From contig JADNYJ010000032.1 in the NCBI GenBank assembly GCA_015501075.1, positions 124,001 to 188,000 on the forward strand: a stretch of 64,000 bases of DNA. The letters are read 5' to 3'. Made by a program: the position numbers and the translations under genes. Below are positions 38,488-53,800 of the stretch, piece by piece. The DNA is from Gymnopilus junonius (lineage: Eukaryota; Basidiomycota; Agaricomycetes; Agaricales; Galerinaceae). Numbering within the stretch: the first letter of the stretch is position 1; each line of letters begins with the position of its first letter. The notes under the pieces were generated by a model, which did no database searches, was not told where the DNA came from, and was given only the letters and a program-made list of their open reading frames with translations.

Positions 38488-39196
38488 CTAACACCCCCTG
38501 CCTCCCCAGTTTTTGCGCGGTGTAAGGGTCAGTAAGACCGTTTGGTCGGCACGGAGAACGCGTATTGGTATGGCGCGCTGTAAATCCATTTTATTCAGCA
38601 GGTCTAGAATCGGATGAGAGCACTTACGTTTTCATTCTCAGCGACAAGTTCGGCCAGGGGTTGCAGAGAACCTGACTTGAATGCGTTGCTATCCAGCTGT
38701 CCGAATTTCACGACCAGGTCACCTCTTCGCAATGCCTGCAGGTCCAAGATCAGTCGTGCACAGGGTAACAAAATAAAAGGAAAACACCCACAGCATCCGC
38801 AGCAGGGCTACCAGGAGCCACTCCGTCGACCTTCGCAAACGGCCTCGGAGTTTCCCTTTGCGATGCAGGTGTGCTTGATGCTGTAGATAACGTCGGCGCC
38901 GGGATAACTACAGTAGGATCGTATATTCCCTCTAGGGCTTTCGCAATCGCGTCCATAACGGCCTTGAGATCATTCCTGAGCTCAATTATCCGCACTCGCG
39001 CGCCCCGTACAGCGTATATGTCGATATCCGCTCTTGGGAAGCCTTCAGGATCGACGAGGGGTGTCTGCATTGTGACCTTGTGGACTTTGAGGACGGAGAA
39101 GTGGGTTTCTAGCTCGGCTTCGATGTTGTCTTTCTGAACAATCAGAGCTCTGGCCTGTTCCATTGGGCTGTCGGGATTTGGGAGTGTTAGACCCAT
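38488..39196 (-). CDS. NAS2: 26S proteasome assembly chaperone Nas2 / PSMD9
   Basis: Nas2 (p27) binds the C-terminus of Rpt5 through a PDZ domain and holds proteasome base subcomplexes until assembly. The start MGLTLPNPDSPMEQARALIV at 39196 leads into an N-terminal helical hairpin (QKDNIEAELETHFSVL), the conserved TPLVDPEGFPRADIDIYAVR, RIIELRNDLKAVMDAIAKAL, a Pro/Ser linker, and a PDZ domain: PFAKVDGVAPGSPAADA, ALRRGDLVVKFGQLDSNAFK, then RAIPIRVLRADQTVLLTLTP. The end KNWGGRGC is the usual C-terminus, with the stop at 38488-38490. Three exons; both introns remove cleanly. The open frame continues upstream of this ATG, but the family start fits here. Confidence 0.93.
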
Positions 39197-39470
39197 AACT
39201 TGAAGAGCGCGTTCAAGGAAGAGATTGCAATAAACGGACGCGATCTCAATGACGACGTAATCGTGTTTTATATCGACAACGTTGCCAAATAACACCTATC
39301 ACTTGGTGGCGGTGCAGCTTAACAATTCTACCATCTTGCAAACATTCAGATAAAAACATGTACGTTCAATTCTTATAAATTTGTATGCTGGATAACATGA
39401 CCCCAATGTAGCCAGGTAAATCGTTCGTTTTTCTCGACACAAATGGCCATCAAGACTGACAAGAAAATGG

Positions 39471-40648
<1,178 letters not shown>

Positions 40649-43081: not shown

Positions 43082-45232
43082 TTATTGATGCAATGTTAGA
43101 CCAGCCTTGGAGTTCCGAACGTTGATAAACGCACCTTCCAACAAACGTTGTCGTTCTTCATCAGAAATGTGGCTGGTAGCGCGCCGCGCGAGAAGTTTCT
43201 CAGTCCTATATTTCTCGTATAGGACTTCTTTAGTATGGGTTTTCAAAACCTGCTGAGAGCTTTAGACTGTATCTAACATGTAGGGGCATGGAACAGACCT
43301 TAAGGTGAGTAGATAAAACAGCTGTTCGTAGAGCGGCAAAGTCACAATGGTCAGGGTTGAGAACGTCGACAGTACCCCATCTGAATTTCCTCGTAAAAAT
43401 GCCCCTTAAGTCTTCCGGAGGACCATGCAGGAAACCATATTTCTGCAAGCTGTGGATAGAAGCGGGAGTTTGGGGAGCGACTTCATTATCAGGGCTATCC
43501 TCAGATGGAACCTGGTGAGTGGCTGTTGAAACCGACTCGGTCATTGAGACTGGCCTATGACGGCGCTTATTTTGCTCAGGAGCGATAAGAGCGAACGGGA
43601 GGAGCTCAGAGAGGTCGGTTTTGGCAACGATATGGGCAGAGAAGCGGACGTTGGCTATGCTTTCCTTGTCGGTCGTGTCTGGAGTGATGGGTCGACGCTC
43701 ATCTTCGGCAACTTGTGAGAGGTCGCGACGCGACCTTGAGCGAGAAAGAGCCCTGTGCCGAGATGGTCGAAGCTTGATGACTGGGCGAGATTTTCGCTCT
43801 GCATCCTCCTCCCCTTCGCTCTCAGTCTCCTCTGGAACTTCAGGTATCTCATTGCCATTGCTCTGATCATTGCTTTCAGCGAATTTGGTCTTCCTCTTGG
43901 GTGTGGCGCTGCTATCAGGCTTCTTCGTGGGTCCAAATATGCCAAAATCGATGCCTGCTTCTGAAAGACCCGTACGAACTGTAGAAAGCATAAATTAATT
44001 TTAATCTTTACATCTTTTCGACCTCTTCCAACTCACCAGCTTCCTTGACTGCAGTCAATTTTTCGTCCGTCAGCGAGTCAGCACGAGCAATAACGGGTAG
44101 GACATTGGTGCGAGCTGTCAACCTCCTAATTACTCTAATTTCAGCAGGAGACATGGTCAGTGCACCATCCTCATCGTCCTCCGATTCATCTCCTGAGGAG
44201 GTATCGGGTACGAGTTCTGGAGGTGTTCGCAAGGAAACAGTCGTCTCGGAGCGCGTCTTAGTCGGCATCGAAGACATGGCATGTCGAGCAGCCGTGGTCA
44301 TGATAGAGGCAGGATCAATCATGTAGATACAGCTGTCTTGAGGTTGGACGCGATACCAGTGAAAGAAGCGAGCTAACTTACAGATGAATATGTTGGTCCC
44401 CTTTGCTTTGGCGGACCACTTTGGATTCCTGGAACTTCCTTCAGCAACTGTGCAATACAAGGACATCCAACTTACTCACCTCACTCATCGTATCCGCATA
44501 TTGCGCGTCCACATATTTTATGACCGAGCTAACCTGACGTTCCAGCTTCAACTCACGCCCTTCTAGGAAGTCCAGACCAGGAGTGTCAATGACGGAGAAC
44601 AGAACTCTATCAAAGCGACTCTCGCATATCTCGACGCAGGCCGTCTGGATATCCTGGGTTGCCTTTGTTGAGCCTTTCAAGAACCGGTCTACAGCCGCTT
44701 TCTGGTCAACAGTGGCGCCAGGTGAGATGTCCGCAGTCTCGAGCAGCAGTCGGAGAATCGACGTTTTGCCTGTTCCTTTTCCACCAGCGACCTGCAGTTT
44801 AGCAATATTTAAGCAGGGCCCAAGACGGAACGCAAATGCAAGGCAAGCAAAACTCACCATGATGTTGAAAGTAGGTGGAATGCGAGCCCGTCGCTGGCTG
44901 AACCGGCCGGCCAAAGGAGGCAGAACTTTCTTGTCAAACGTAGCTGGCGGTCCCGACATGTAAATATCAGAGATAGGCCCTCCATTGTTCGGTTTTCCTG
45001 TGGAGGGCCGAAATGGTTTATGGAATGGTATGGCACTGTGGCTTTGGAAAGAGACTCTCGCCGCACCTTGGTGTGGGATAGCATCTGGAGGTGACTCCTG
45101 CCGGATGGCTGCAATATCCACTAATTCTTCGGGCCATGGAATACCTTGACTGTTGAGCTCGGGAAGAGAAGGAGAGGTTCGAATACGCGGGCTTTCAGGC
45201 TCCCTCCTGGGTTTGCGACGAAAGGAAAACAT
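43082..45232 (-). CDS. Atypical septin-type GTPase A
   Basis: Septins are GTPases that polymerise at the cell cortex. The order of motifs is septin-like: a Pro/Arg-rich N-terminus (MFSFRRKPRREPESPRIRTS), P-loop VAGGKGTGKTSILRLLLET, G3 in VIDTPGLDFLEG, CIYMIDPASIM, G4 VLPVIARADSLTDEKL, EAGIDFGIF, FALIAPEQ, and the septin unique element FRWGTVDVLNPDHCDFAALR with TAVLSTHL, then KTHTKEVLYEKYRTEKLLAR. Two features are unusual. There is a Ser/acidic insert of about 50 residues before IRRLTARTNVL and a charged insert of about 120 residues after GIDFGIF, and G4 is ARAD where septins usually have AKAD. It ends NSKAGLTLHQ without a long coiled coil. Six exons join in frame. The nearest relative in the window is septin B. 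Confidence 0.85.
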
Positions 45233-45695
45233 AACGACCTATTCCGACAGGATTGTCGTCAAGGAGAAGGGAAGGAGAAAAGAAAAAGTCAAAAGAGCGT
45301 CCAAGGGTTTGATGAAACCTATCAGTGGGGGTAATTAACGTCAGCAACCGCGTCCAAGGAGCGGCTTTGGGAAAATGGTGCCGCAAAACGAACAGGGAAG
45401 CGGGGACAAAGAAAAGTTTAAACAACCATTCGATTTCCCTCCATCTGTTCAAGGCACCAATAATGATTGGATCAACCACCCCATATGTCAAATGCTCCGA
45501 GATAAAGCACAATAAAAACAACTATATTTCACGACAACAAATATACAACTACAGATCCATTTGCTATAGTATAGCTTAGGTACTGCCTTTGAGCCCAATG
45601 TAACCCTCGAAAACAGTCAAAATCAATAGAACACGGTGGGTAGAGGAGTGGGATAGTAATCTACATAGAGTAGGAAGATGATCGATAGGGAGCAC

Positions 45696-47042
45696 TTAGG
45701 GTATACCAGCTTGCGCTGGATTGTTATCCATCCTCATTTTCTTGTGGTACCGCATGTCCACACTACCATATTCTAAAGGCCTTTTCAGGTCGACCTCTCC
45801 ATTAGTGTGCATGTCGGCTTCGCGGAGTACGTGTATATCATTCCCAGCGGTGGATGGTGTAGGGATCATTCTAGAGGAAGGTGGTGAAATAGAGCGCGGA
45901 GACTCTGCGGTGTGTGCTTTTGATGTTGATGGCCGGCGAGCTTTCTTTTGTCCTGGGCCACTAGGACCGCTCGACTCGTGCACATAGTTGCAGTCCAGCT
46001 GTCTACGCGCGCAACTAGCACAAGCAGGGTGCGCGCCATCACATTTTGTCTTACGGGCTGAAAGAAAGTGAGTATGTATAACATCAGAAAAGTGATTGGC
46101 ACGTACCTCTACAAAAATTACAAGCCACGACTTTTGGGCCTGAGCTGGCGGTCTGCCGAGTGGATTTGCCAGGGACGGTTGCAGCACGCTTTCTCTGAGC
46201 AGCTTGTAGATCTGAGGCCGGGCGTATGGGAGGAAGGTTTGGGGCAGACATCGGTACAGGCGTTGGGGGTGACGGCTCTGCCAATGGTAATGTAGCAATG
46301 TGAGGAACCTCATTATCGGGGAAATAGCCGCGTGAGCTGCTCAAAGAGGGAACAGAGTCCATATTGGGACGTGAGGACGAGGCTGCCGAACCATCATCTC
46401 GACGCTCACTCAGAGCAGATATTGAAGGTAAGGTTTGAGGGTAACCTTCGTGCGGCGGTCGTCCAACATTGGAACTTCTGCGCGAATGAGTTTGGGACGG
46501 TACTGAAGGAGACAGGGAGGGCTCGTCTGGCTCGGCAGACCTCTCCTCTACACTTTCACTTCCAGTTTCGTCGCCCTTCCTAGCTCGTTGAGTCCCACGC
46601 CGTTTGTTCTGGGGCATATAGTCACAGGGATTGTTTCGTTTTAGACATTGGCTGCATGTTGGACGGCCTCCATCGCATTTCAGTTTCCTCGCTGAAAGGG
46701 ATTGTCAGATAAGTTGATGCGTAGCAAAATTGTAAATAATATCATACATCGACAGAAATTGCACGCGACAGTAATCTTTTTGCTGCGGGGAGGTTTGACT
46801 CCTTAAAGGGGCCAATAAATTAAATCATCAGAGTGAAGAAAAAGAGGGAGAGGCATACTGGGAGGAGCGCTTCTACTAGAGGCGACAGGGGTATGTTCCG
46901 GCATGGTACGAGGAGGTGCACTCCGGACATCAACAGGATAGACAGGATGTCCCTGCTGAACAGGGACAGGATGGCGGTGTACAGATGGGGGAGGAGCTGT
47001 ATCAATAGCTAAGATAGGTCTAGACGGATGCTGCAAAGGCAT
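45696..47042 (-). CDS. Double Zn2Cys6 zinc-cluster protein (open to septin B)
   Basis: Two complete fungal zinc clusters are present, each six cysteines in C-x2-C-x6-C-x6-C-x2-C-x6-C spacing: ACNFCRSRKLKCDGGRPTCS with QCLKRNNPCDY, and ACNFCRARKTKCDGAHPACA with SCARRQLDCNY. Such clusters bind paired DNA triplets and mark fungal transcription factors. There is no fungal-TF middle homology domain; the rest is Ser/Pro-rich with a basic stretch (AAQRKRAATVPGKSTRQ) and ends DNNPAQAGIP (stop 45696-45698). If this is its own gene, the likely start is MPLQHPSRPILAID at 47042. However, the same frame continues upstream with no stop into the septin B C-terminal exon (47148), so the two may be one gene. 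Introns interrupt both clusters right after CNFCR. Confidence 0.8.
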
Positions 47043-47088
47043 ATGCTGGATATGAGAAACGGAATGGTGGGGAGAGGGGCGCTGATGA

Positions 47089-48722
47089 ACCGCGTAGTCA
47101 GAGCGGAACTTGTCAAAAAGGTAGAGTTTGGTGTATTTCTGTAGGGTCTAGCAAGGAAATCAAAAAAAGATAATCAGAACGCCGGGAACGGTAACCTAGG
47201 AAGGCATTGTACTTACTTCCATGTGGTGAAATATGGCTGTGCGAAGAGGTAGGAAGTCGCTGTGGGAAGGGTCCAAGACATCCAAGTTGCCCCATCGATA
47301 CGAGCGCACAAATTTCCCTCGAGGAAAAGGGGGAGGCATGGAGTAGTGTGCAGAAGGAGTGTACTGCTGTACCAGCTCATGTCTAGAGGGCAGCCTTCTG
47401 GAGACACCGTCACTATGAGAGTATAAATCTGGAGAAATTAGAGCGTAGGGTAGACGAAGAATAGGCGGCGCCGTGGGCGACGTAGGTGGTGTATTGTTTA
47501 AGTTGGAAGAAGACGCTCCATTTGGACCGTGGACATAACCATTAGATGAGTCTGGCCTATTTGCAGACGCGGTGTGATCGTCCTGCGCATGAGGAATCGG
47601 AGGGTCAGTGTCGAAAATGCCAAATCCAATGCCAGCTTCAGCTAGGTCCCTGCGTATGGCGAGTTTGACAGCAGCCAATCGATCGTTCGATAAGATATCA
47701 GCTCTGGCTATCACAGGGAGGACATTGACACGCCCAGACAGTCGGCGAATGGCCGTAATGTCGGCCTGGGGCAAGGTCGGCCGGGAAAGAAGGGGGTTGG
47801 TGGTAACAGGAGGCTCTAGGATAACGGGTTCGTGGTCTGGCTGGGAAAAGCTGTTGCCGCGGGTTCGGGAAATGAGCGGGGCAGGCGGCGCCGGAACCGA
47901 CGGCGGGACAATTTGGTCCGGGTCAAGGAAGTAAATACAGCTGGACATTGCACGGTAATAAACAAATAAGTGGGCGGTCAAGGAGATTAGATGGGCTGGG
48001 CAGTACGTACAGGTGTACATATCGGTCGCCAGTCTGTGCTTTCCATTCCTGCAGAATAAAGGCGTGTTAGGATACGGAGGAAAGAGTGGAGGAACGCAAT
48101 AGGCGCCATACATCTTCGAGCCCTTCTGCAAACCGACTATCAACAATGCGAATAGTCTCGCTGAGCAGGCGTTCTGCGGCAGCCTCATCTCGAAAGTCCA
48201 AAGACGGGGTGTCGATGAGAGTGAGCCCCAGGGGCCGCTGTTGCCCGCTTCCGTCGGGGTCAACGTTGATGTCGACAGATGCAGACCGTATGAAAGAGGT
48301 GTGGCCACTGCACCCCTGGACGAACTTTGCGACAGACGCGAGCTGATCCTTGGTCGACCGTGGAGAAACAACGCTGGTGTCGAGCAAGAGACGGAGGAAG
48401 GAGGTTTTGCCTGATCCGAGAGCAGCGGCGGCAATAATGAGCGACGAAATGAAATCGAGCGCACCGGAGTGGGTGGAACGAGACTCACCTCCTCGACAGC
48501 CAGCGACGAGCAGGTTAAACTCTGGCCGGTTGTTGTCTGGCAGATAGTATGAGCCCCAGGGGGTGATATAAGATATGGGTGGCCGGGGCAGCTGAGCTTA
48601 CCTGGGGTTTCGTGTTTGAGAGGAGGACCACCTGTGGCAACTCCAGGATATTGGCCAACGACGCCCTGTATGGCAGAACGCTCCCCGTCGTCGTGTCGGA
48701 TCCGGTGGCCAGTGTTGTTCAT
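47089..48722 (-). CDS. Atypical septin-type GTPase B (open to the zinc-cluster protein)
   Basis: A second septin-like GTPase, in the same direction as septin A. Proposed start MNNTGHRIRHDDGERSA at 48722; an upstream exon is not excluded. Motifs: VAGCRGGKTSFLRLLLDTSV as P-loop (after splicing out GTGAGT..ATCAG), LIDTPSLDFRDEAA as G3, CIYFLDPDQIVPP, G4 VLPVIARADILSNDRL, LAEAGIGFGIFDTD, LPYALISPDLY, and SYRWGNLDVLDPSHSDFLPL with RTAIFHHME. It shares with septin A the Ser/Pro insert before IRRLSGRVNVL, the insert after GIGFGIF and the ARAD G4. After an intron (47149-47216) the frame continues TLQKYTKLYLFDKFRSDYAV, equivalent to the septin A tail, and then runs without stop into the zinc-cluster protein. 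Reading through that intron instead gives a stop after HHMEVSTMPS. Confidence 0.8.
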
Positions 48723-49302
48723 CGTGGTCGCCACAACGGGGAAAGCAGGATTGGCCGCACGCGCAGGCGAAAGCGGTGATTTCGATTCTTCCAAATCCTG
48801 TTTTGATGCGAATCATCTCGCTAATGGTAATTTCCACCGAGCCAATCGGAAGAAACCAAGGTCGCCACTCTCTTTCCTTTGCACACAACAATATGGCTTT
48901 CTGCTCTTAACCTACTGCTAATATCGTATTAAATCTCTACTGTAATCGAGAATTAAATGTGTTTAATATCTCTCAAAACACCACTTCAGGGTGCGAAATC
49001 GTGGGAGCGGTCGTCTGCGCCCAAAGTGCGCATGTAAGCCGCTAAGAAAAGACAGGACACTTAGCAACGAATACGTAAGGAGAAGCCCAAGGAGGATCTG
49101 TCCGCCAATGACAGGATGGAATGAATGTGGGGAAGCGCATTGCAAAGGCACGGAATCAAACGCCAGAACACATACAGTACACAGCCAAGATCTAGCCTTT
49201 TGACCCGACCCAGACCCGCAAAAGGATGAAGGACATGAGGGGGGCGGACGGCGGGCGCGACACTGCGCGACTGACCTCCGGAGCACTTGTGATCCGGAAT
49301 GA
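48723..49302. other. Spacer between the zinc-cluster gene and septin B
   Basis: About 580 bases between the stop of the single Zn2Cys6 gene and the chosen start of septin B, both on the minus strand. It probably holds the septin B promoter. A minus frame starting MIRIKTGFGRIEI (to 48598) overlaps septin B in another frame and is not called. Confidence 0.4.
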
Positions 49303-50485
49303 TCAACTCAGCTTTCTATAGCTATAGCCTTCTCTGTCCAAGCGATCTTCTGAGCTTGTTTCCCGATTCCGGTGTGTCCGTGTGCTTGTGCGCGAGTAAT
49401 AGTAGCGGTCACGAGTGTCCGGAGTGCTTGCGTATTGTGGGGATGGATCAGGCGGTTGAAAACCGAAGTTGTCCAGAGATAGAACGGACGTGAACGGACG
49501 CAATTCCGGTGCCAAAGCGTCAAGTTCGTCTTCGGGGAGACCAGTAGAGGGACGATCTCCTTTGGAAGAAACAGTCGAACCTGAGGGATCCGAGCGTGAG
49601 GAGCCAGCTTTTTTTGAGCGGCTTCCTCTGCCTCTCGGCGCTTTGCCAGGTCCGCGCCGGCGTTGAATGGGGACATATTCACATTCAAATTTGCGGACCG
49701 TGCAGTTATAACACGAGGGCTTCGCTCCATTGCAACGTAGCTTTCGACCTATTTGCGAAAGCGAAGAGAAGTATGTTTATGGATAGGAAATTGGGAGAGA
49801 CACACCTCGGCAGAAATTGCATGCCACTGCGGTCTTGCGAGTATTCCTTGACCTTCGCGCATTGTCATCGGTGTCTAAAGAATGGGCCCTTGGGCGCTTT
49901 CCTTTCCGGGAATCCTCATCATCGTTGCTGGGGCCGTATTCGCCGCCCGAGGGAGGGGAGGCCGGACGGTGATAGAACATGGACTGGTGGTAGACCTCCG
50001 GACTGTCTGGTGTCTTGATGCGGGGTGGAGTGGTTGGATCCATGTCAAGAGAGGCCTCGGAGGGATGATATGGGTAGGCATCGTGTCTGTCAAAAGAGAA
50101 TGATGAAGAAGCAGGATCGGAACTCGGGACGAGAAGCTGGTGAGGAGGAGGCAAGGTGTGAGACGAGGAGTAAGGGACGGCTATATTTGGGATGAGCATG
50201 TTCGAAGGGGGTGCTGGGAGGAAAGGACGCACATAGGCAGTAGTCGCGCTCTAGGACCTGAGGATAGCTGGCGCCGCGACGGTGGTGAAGCAGAGAAGAG
50301 GGCCCGGGCTCACCCTCACGCCAGCCGTCATCATAGTCGTACACGAGAGCGAGGAGGGGGTCGACGACGGGCTGGAGGGTGGTGCGGGTGCCGGAGTCGC
50401 GGGGCTGCTGGGGCGCAGAGTAGAGATGGGGAATAAGACTGCTGGGAAGCGAGCTCTGGCGACTCGAGGAGTTGTGCCTGTCCAT
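49303..50485 (-). CDS. Zn2Cys6 zinc-cluster protein (frame broken)
   Basis: One zinc cluster, ACNFCRGRKLRCNGAKPSCY with NCTVRKFECEY, followed by VPIQRRRGPGKAPRGRGSRS, a basic linker typical of DNA-binding proteins. Start MDRHNSSSRQSSLPSSLIPH at 50485; the N-terminus is Ser/Pro-rich, with SSSFSFDRHDAYPYHPSEAS and a basic/acidic stretch RKGKRPRAHSLDTDDNARRS before the cluster. The C-terminus LSLDNFGFQPPDPSPQYAST ends SYRKLS (stop 49303-49305). An intron splits the cluster directly after CNFCRG, at the same place and phase as in the two clusters at 45.7-47.0 kb. The frame shifts near 50240 between LERDY and AYVRPFLPAPPS. Target genes cannot be inferred. The gene is divergent from the dihydroxy-acid dehydratase gene, 329 bases away. 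Confidence 0.8.
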
Positions 50486-50814: not shown

Positions 50815-53800
50815 ATGCCGCCACATCCACGTCCTTTCGTCGCTGCCTCCCGCAGTTTCTCCTCCTGTGCTGCCAGAAAAGATGGCAAGTCCGTCATGAA
50901 CAGATACAGCAGGCTTGTCACCCACCCGAAAGATCAGGGTGCCAGTCAGGTCATCCCCATGTGTTGCACCCCAATGTCCGTACTCACTTTGCTCAGGCCA
51001 TGCTCTATGCCACCGATGGCGTCAACTCAGATGATGATTTCAACAAGGCCATGGTCGGTGTCGCCAGTGTGTGGTAAGTCCAGCTCTCTTGGCACCTTCT
51101 TCTCCGTCTCACCATTCAATAGGTACGAAGGCAATCCGTGTGTAGCCCTTTACTCGAATGAGAAACGCGCTCTCTGAGTCCGCCTTTGAAATAGATGCAA
51201 CAAGCACCTTCTCGGTCTGGGCCAGGAGATAAAAGCTTCCCTCTCCAAGTCCGACATCATTGGCTATCAGTTCGGTACTGTCGGTGTCAGCGACGCTATA
51301 AGCATGGGCACTTTTGGGATGTCCTATTCACTTCAATCGCGCGACCTCATAGCCGACCAGGTCGAGACCGCTGCAGGTGGCCATCACCTCGATGGCATGG
51401 TTGTTGTTCCTGGATGCGACAAGAATATGCCAGGTGTTCTGATTGCTCGTCAGTCTTAATCCTTCCGTCTCCTTCAGTTTTCCTTCGGTTTCTGACTTGC
51501 TCCTGTTTTTATCTTTATCTCTCTCTGTACACTCACGTCACTTTCCTCCGGTCCTGTTTGACATATCATTCAAACATTATCACATTCAGTGGGCCGCCTA
51601 AACCGTCCTGGTCTCATGGTATATGGGGGTACAATTCGCGCTGGCTCGTGCGAAGGTGCGCCACAGCTCGACATCGTGTCTGCCTTCCAGTCATACGGCA
51701 AATACCTCCAGAGCGGAAAGACTCCCGAGGCCGAGCGTGAGCGCTATAGAACTAACCGCTACGCATGCCCCGGACCTGGAGCTTGTGGAGGCGTGAGTAG
51801 TGTGCCCTGGCCTGTCCTTCACCTTTCTAATGGCTCTGACGTTCCCGAAATATTAGATGTACACCGCTAACACGATGGCCTCAGCCATCGAGGCCATGGG
51901 CATGACCATTCCAGGGTCTTCCTCTTTCCCGGCCCAGTCAAAAGAGAAGCACGATGAGTGTGCGTCTGTGGGATCCGTCATGTACAACCTCCTCGCGAAA
52001 AACATCCTCCCGAGACAGATCATGACCCGGTCTGCATTCGAGAATGCGATAGTGCGAACTTTGCTCATTTTAAACGGGCGAACAAAGGCTAATGAATCTC
52101 CTTTTTCGTTTTTGTTTCCGGATCGACTTCCCCGTTTATTCCATATTTTTTTTTCTCCCGTTTCCTTTTTTGATGTGTGCTTGGGCTTTGAACTTGCTCA
52201 AATTGGCTTATCACCTGGCATGCGAAAACCTAAATGCAAACGAAAACAACCTGTATTAGGTTTTGACCATGATCATGGGGGGCTCCACCAATGCGGTTCT
52301 TCACCTTATCGCAATGGCACACTCAGTTGGGATCAAGCTGGAAATTGACGATTTCCAGAACGTGTCAGACCGCATACCCTTCCTCGCGGACATCAAACCT
52401 AGCGGTAAATACTTGATGGAAGATGTCTACAAACTCGGTGGCATTCCAAGTAGGTTTCGTGATTTTCTTTTCATCTCTCAGAAATTACCATTCTTCCTCC
52501 TACACGTGCACGGGGTTCTCATGAAATTTACCTTCTTTTCCCTCCTACAGAGATTTTGGCTTTCCTCCTCAAGAATAAACTGATAGATGGCAACAACATG
52601 ACCGTCACGGGCAAGACCCTCGGCGAGAACCTAGAAGAGTGGACGTTTAAACACGGGGAGCTAGATTCTCGACAGGACGTTATACGACCGTTGAACAACC
52701 CCATCAAGACGTCAGGACATATCAGGTACGGTGGACCATCCATCCTTCAGTTTTCGTTTGTTTAACCCAAAGTCCTTCTCCCTCCCTTTTCTTTTCCCTT
52801 ACCACGTTGTCAACTTCGCCCCGCCTTCTTCTCCGCCTTACGGCTACTCTGATATTTCTGGTAAACCTGATATGCTGACTTGTGACTCTTAAATTAGAAT
52901 TCTAAAAGGTAACCTTGCGCCTGGAGGAGCAGTCGCAAAGATCACAGGTAAAGAAGGCCTTGGATTTGTGGGCAAAGCCCGCACGTTCGACACCGAAACA
53001 GACTTTGTAAGGGCTGTTGAGAGTGGGTCTATCAAAAAGGGTGAAAAGACGGTTGTCATTCTCAGGTATCTGGGACCAAAGGGTGGACCCGGTAAGTCTC
53101 TTGCTTTTTTAATTCTCTGTGGCCCTGTCCGCCTTTGACGCGCCATCTTGCTAAACGACGCCGTCGGTAATTATTATCTGTGCTGTCTGGTCTATGGTGC
53201 CAAAGTTGTTTCTATCTTTGGCCTGTCCGAATTTTGCTGGATTTTTATTTTCTTGCCAACTAATTTTTGGGGACATTTATTCACGTCTTTTCCGGAGTAT
53301 TTCACTTTTGATGGCTTACTGATGACATTTGTTTTGCTCTTTTCGCCCACTCGGGGCGCTGACAGGCATGCCTGAAATGCTCAAACCCACGGGTCTCATC
53401 ATGGGCGCTGGTCTAGGCCAAGATGTAGCCTGTCTAACAGACGGGCGTTTCAGCGGAGGGTGAGTGTGTCTATCTTTATTTTTCATGTCACTTCTTTTCC
53501 ATTATTGGTGAATTCGAAATTGTCAAATTTTCATTCGTATTGTGCCGTGCGCTTTGTCCCCACACTCGCCGACGTACTGAAAATTTAAAATGACGAATAA
53601 TACGCCGGAGATTTATGTGCCTTGTCCATACCTTCGTTACCTTTGCCGTTACCTTGCTCTTAAATTTCTCGTCGTTGGATGGCAACGCGTTCGATGAGCA
53701 CTACCATTGTTCCCTAATCTTTTTCTGATCCTTTTTTGGGTCTTTATCTCCTCCCTGAGGACGCATGCGACGCCGGCCTCCCCGCGCACATCAATGACAC

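Follow-up and report, generated by a model that had tools for sequence, protein, structure and literature searches.

Background

Septins are guanosine triphosphatases (GTPases) of the cell skeleton that serve as scaffolds at the cell cortex. Here we describe a locus in a 64,000-nucleotide stretch of the Gymnopilus junonius genome (contig JADNYJ010000032.1, positions 124,001 to 188,000; referred to as the window, and numbered from its first letter) in which one gene, B, almost certainly encodes an altered septin and two Zn2Cys6 zinc clusters in a single protein, next to a second septin gene, A. The closest described protein is PoZCP55 of Pleurotus ostreatus, in which, as in B, two C-terminal zinc clusters lie behind septin domains, and which we infer from this domain order to be the ortholog of B. 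A gene-family survey names PoZCP55 in three short passages; it describes the protein in a single sentence and assigns it a clade of its own among the zinc-cluster proteins, and the available text of that survey is silent on lost G motifs, a neighboring septin or other species (PMC7295025).

Septin A, the neighbor and relative of B, resembles the Group 5 septins (AspE; PMC1931588, PMC6323724, PMC3963935) in that its Coprinopsis ortholog, CC1G_04978, is named Cc.AspE (PMC4624876), and its Group 5 label comes from this published name rather than from a tree with ascomycete AspE. The AspE protein of Aspergillus nidulans lies at the cortex; its contact with one core septin is confined to multicellular growth, and the septin structures of that stage require it (PMC3963935). 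B departs from Group 5 septins in carrying zinc clusters and in having neither canonical G1 and G3 motifs nor the polybasic stretch. With the Zn2Cys6 (GAL4-type) transcription factors B has in common complete six-cysteine clusters, two of them, but in B these are C-terminal, are paired in one chain, lie behind a septin fold and are accompanied by no Fungal_trans match.

The domain combination is already present in public annotation. Beyond PMC7295025, we found no mention of a septin–zinc fusion in the papers examined from the open-licence literature searched, a minority of those listed; the word 'zinc' is absent from the main texts of the septin-evolution papers PMC6323724, PMC11238149 and PMC8801916, and the word 'septin' from those of PMC5604158 and PMC7567395. 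Within the scope of that search, the breadth of the fusion, its position beside an AspE-like septin, and the uniform change in the G motifs are new.

Structure and distribution of gene B

The gene models place three genes on the minus strand (Table 1), and the middle one joins the altered septin to the two zinc clusters. A first-pass annotation had described four alternating septin and zinc-cluster genes, but its septin B continues into its double zinc cluster within one open reading frame of nine exons; the septin–zinc link that it proposed is real, although mainly as a single polypeptide, which it had overlooked. The septin B frame continues without a stop across the 57-base intron 46858..46802 into zinc cluster a, giving a spliced frame of 839 amino acids (aa), and the deposited G. 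junonius protein P0001 agrees with this model letter for letter.

Both the septin (PF00735) and zinc-cluster (PF00172) families are present in all 120 listed proteins, P0001 included (the best 120 of 206 matches to B; 120 proteins were likewise listed for septin A). These fused proteins span the Agaricales, Boletales, Polyporales, Russulales, Jaapiales and Atheliales, the order having been checked for Gymnopilus, Jaapia, Athelia and Dentipellis, while the remaining species are placed in the orders to which we take them to belong. All six cysteines are aligned in 113 of the 120 listed models for cluster a and in 116 for cluster b. Counts of motifs, charge and linkers were made on 106 of the 120 B proteins (14 that were merged, cluster-incomplete or otherwise odd were excluded), with motif and charge counts also made on 74 of the 120 A proteins, chosen for spread. 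There is no conserved internal start in the linker between the septin and zinc parts: 11 of 106 linkers have no methionine, and the best methionine column is filled in 31 of 106.

Two of the deposited entries bear on splicing. P0026 (820 aa, longest contig 2,592 bases) is contiguous at all eight B exon joints, and P0010 (828 aa, 28 member sequences) at seven of the eight, with a gap at the first. Because both are spliced across the joints, whereas the long-contig entries P0127, P0129 and P0142 read into introns there, we take P0010 and P0026 to represent transcripts. The survey describing PoZCP55 corrected its gene models with RNA sequencing (RNA-seq) reads (PMC7295025).

When only the zinc tail was used as query (entries of about 217–690 aa), there were 91 matches, of which five carry both domains and most others are short pieces. 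Ten of the matches have an NCBI species name: P0157 and P0164 are fusions, P0194 begins within the septin end, P0126, P0131 and P0135 begin directly after cluster a, P0209 begins within cluster a, and P0205 consists of cluster b alone. The other two start ahead of the cluster a stretch, P0185 (Suillus) by about 24 residues and P0208 (partial) by about 84, and could be either truncated models or genuinely separate zinc proteins.

The septin half of B

B has a Pfam Septin match above the cut-off as well as a predicted septin fold, although it has neither the canonical G1 loop length nor the G3 motif DTPG. The G1 loop ahead of the GK pair has three residues in all 90 readable B proteins (of 106), compared with four in all 70 readable A proteins (of 74), and the B P-loop reads AGCRGGKT; the same motif is found in P0010, with AGSRGGKT in P0026. 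Not every deposited copy of this motif is reliable, since some models seem to misread the intron at 48488..48411; two of the 120 have AAALGSGKTS at the P-loop, as though this intron were retained. At the DTPG position serine is present in 101 of 104 filled B rows (DTPS) and glycine in none, whereas glycine is present in all 73 filled A rows. Because the G1 loop is short and the DTPG glycine is gone, we refer to B as septin-derived and not as a normal septin GTPase.

The polybasic stretch ahead of the G domain is kept in A and lost in B, with mean net charges over the 20 residues before strand 1 of +5.1 and −0.5, respectively. The R...W...H residues of the septin unique element, near the C-terminal end of the G domain, are present in B (R381 in 106 of 106, W385 in 105, H395 in 97). 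By sequence, B has kept the predicted septin fold and the conserved R/W/H interface residues, and has lost canonical G1 and G3 motifs as well as the polybasic stretch.

Septin A and the conserved neighborhood

The A and B neighborhood is conserved among relatives: for 60 of the 61 named species that could be compared, the two genes are on source contigs of equal listed size, and their gene tags are often consecutive (the comparison covered rows that had both an NCBI name and a contig, 115 of 120 for B and 96 of 120 for A). This conservation suggests a common job for A and B. The septins also group together, against the five core septins, in a tree of 20 B proteins, 17 A proteins and the five genome septins assembled from exon matches. 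Two of the five core septins are 64% filled in this alignment, and two badly trimmed B rows 25% filled; the groups were the same when these two B rows were omitted. The septin half of B would most simply be related to septin A by tandem duplication.

In Coprinopsis, an antisense transcript of CC1G_04978, biased towards the 3' end, is reported to arise ahead of stipe elongation (PMC4624876), and this may bear on regulation of the locus described here. The AlphaFold model of septin A has a mean predicted local distance difference test (pLDDT) score of 59.7.

Core septin loci C4/C155 and C257/C754 are each present twice in the assembly as near-identical matches (C155 and C754 were left out of the tree), and the assembly may contain both haplotypes in places. 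Searches of the assembly by DNA and by protein found no second copy or allele of the A/B locus.

Zinc clusters

Both B clusters are of the CX2CX6CX6CX2CX6C kind with all six cysteines (Zn_clus, 70.4 bits over two stretches), and match GAL4 and other solved clusters by sequence; Pfam gives no Fungal_trans match in B. There are also conserved stretches between and after the clusters (e.g. ELPhIATL and Kkmr).

The zinc clusters of the locus have a common intron position, as the first-pass annotation observed, but this is probably not special to the locus, since candidate first exons of two unlinked zinc-cluster matches (L012 and L013) end at the same position. A tree of the clusters (42 columns, with long branches) interleaves unlinked clusters with those of the locus, and we read it solely as failing to support their sisterhood. 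We also note a zinc-cluster match (L015, C223:490392-490508) about 12 kilobases from a core septin (C223:502930-504112). It is of a different cluster kind (ACTVCRRLKMKC), and among so many matches its closeness to a septin may be chance.

Features of the locus

The coordinates of the features are given in Table 1. The genes flanking the locus (38753..40036 and 51857..52580) have ordinary housekeeping roles; Nas2 and Thi4 lie on the minus strand, and a dihydroxy-acid dehydratase on the plus strand.

Table 1. Genes and gene B features of the locus, in window coordinates.
Feature	Position	Strand	Evidence or remark
Upstream zinc-cluster gene	49303..50485	-	Gene model; Zn_clus 36.2 bits; deposited models P0017, P0024 and P0080 merge it with B, on the upstream side
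Gene B: septin G domain and two Zn2Cys6 clusters, 9 exons, 839 aa	45696..48722	-	Gene model letter-identical to P0001; both Pfam families
B septin-fold region, residues 45-432, introns within	47082..48525	-	
B shortened P-loop AGCRGGKT, interrupted by intron 48488..48411	48403..48504	-	Gene model, alignment
B linker between septin and zinc parts, residues 433-519	46764..47081	-	Contains intron 46858..46802; stop-free, no conserved Met
B zinc cluster a, residues 520-547, intron within	46624..46763	-	Six Cys aligned in 113/120 listed models
B zinc cluster b, residues 715-742, intron within	45990..46122	-	Six Cys aligned in 116/120 listed models
Gene A: septin, 7 exons, 612 aa	43067..45232	-	Gene model identical to deposited P0212

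Possible functions of B

The overall explanation that we somewhat favor is that B is a chimera, with a septin half related to A, acting as a nuclear DNA-binding regulator that docks proteins. The nuclear docking mechanism itself we consider about evenly balanced on the sequence features described above. B would be a nuclear DNA-binding regulator whose two clusters, carried on a single chain, would recognise paired half-sites. Its septin half, having neither a normal GTP cycle nor membrane binding of its own, would be a surface for docking or pairing with another B, with septin A or with a core septin. Through such docking, DNA binding by B could answer to septin assembly in multicellular growth, and if septin A behaves in mushrooms as AspE does in Aspergillus, B could pass that information to the DNA.

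Several observations weigh against this explanation. We found no data on the localisation of B, on its binding to DNA or nucleotides or on its interactions. The G4 aspartate is kept in 105 of 106 B proteins, and a Walker-type [AG]xxxxGK[ST] motif can still be read in AGCRGGKT, so that B may bind nucleotide. The interface residue H395 is replaced by glutamine in nine of 106. The predicted structure of B has a mean pLDDT of 56 over its whole length, with low confidence for the zinc clusters and linkers, and a zinc cluster is incomplete in seven (cluster a) and four (cluster b) of the 120 listed models. The listing also favors fused proteins, because the query was itself fused, candidates had to reach about 462 aa, and 86 weaker matches lie outside it (7,986 candidates sharing the most words were scored). 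Some spliced entries may moreover be gene predictions on DNA, because the jgi entry P0082 is also spliced and its source contig has the same size, 5,153, as that of the septin A entry P0285.

Two alternatives concern the gene structure. Gene finders do appear to merge neighbors at this locus (P0011, P0013, P0017, P0024 and P0080), which justifies caution about merged models, although we do not think that it explains the B fusion. That B itself is an artefact of two adjacent genes merged in annotation is exceedingly improbable given the spliced, transcript-like P0010 and P0026, the RNA-seq-corrected PoZCP55 (PMC7295025), the linker lacking a conserved start, and the clusters that are complete in most listed models. 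The first-pass annotation had proposed instead that a two-gene unit of septin and zinc cluster was duplicated in tandem, consistent with the grouping of A and B against the core septins and with the common intron position of the clusters. However, the second unit is one gene, and the intron place may also occur in unlinked matches; because the tree, in which unlinked clusters interleave, does not show the clusters to be sister copies, the duplicated unit is unsupported, and we consider it very improbable.

The remaining alternatives accept the fusion and differ in where the septin half acts. B could be a latent factor tethered at the cortex, with its septin half anchored in cortical or septal septin structures and nuclear entry occurring only when these change; the cortical location of Aspergillus AspE and its contact, limited to multicellular growth, with one core septin (PMC3963935), and the retention of interface residues in B are consistent with such a tether, but the polybasic stretch kept in A is lost in B, and we think this unlikely. 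It seems similarly unlikely that B is a purely nuclear dimer, in which the septin half serves solely for self-pairing of B, replacing the usual zinc-cluster dimer helix, and has no tie to the septin skeleton. The conservation of septin interface residues despite altered G motifs and the lack of a Fungal_trans match would fit this arrangement, whereas the conserved neighborhood with septin A, suggesting a common job, argues against it. A further reading, which we regard as possible but rather doubtful, is a septin-to-DNA relay in mushrooms, in which a septin copy free of the GTP cycle, mounted on two DNA-binding clusters and with septin A as partner, would convey the state of the septin skeleton in multicellular growth to transcription.

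The covalent link to a DNA-binding module represents a different use of the septin fold. The fusion occurs in many mushroom-forming fungi and could connect cell architecture with gene control; if B does read the state of the septins, it would provide a direct and testable path linking cell architecture to gene expression while mushrooms develop (e.g. in Coprinopsis cinerea or Pleurotus ostreatus).
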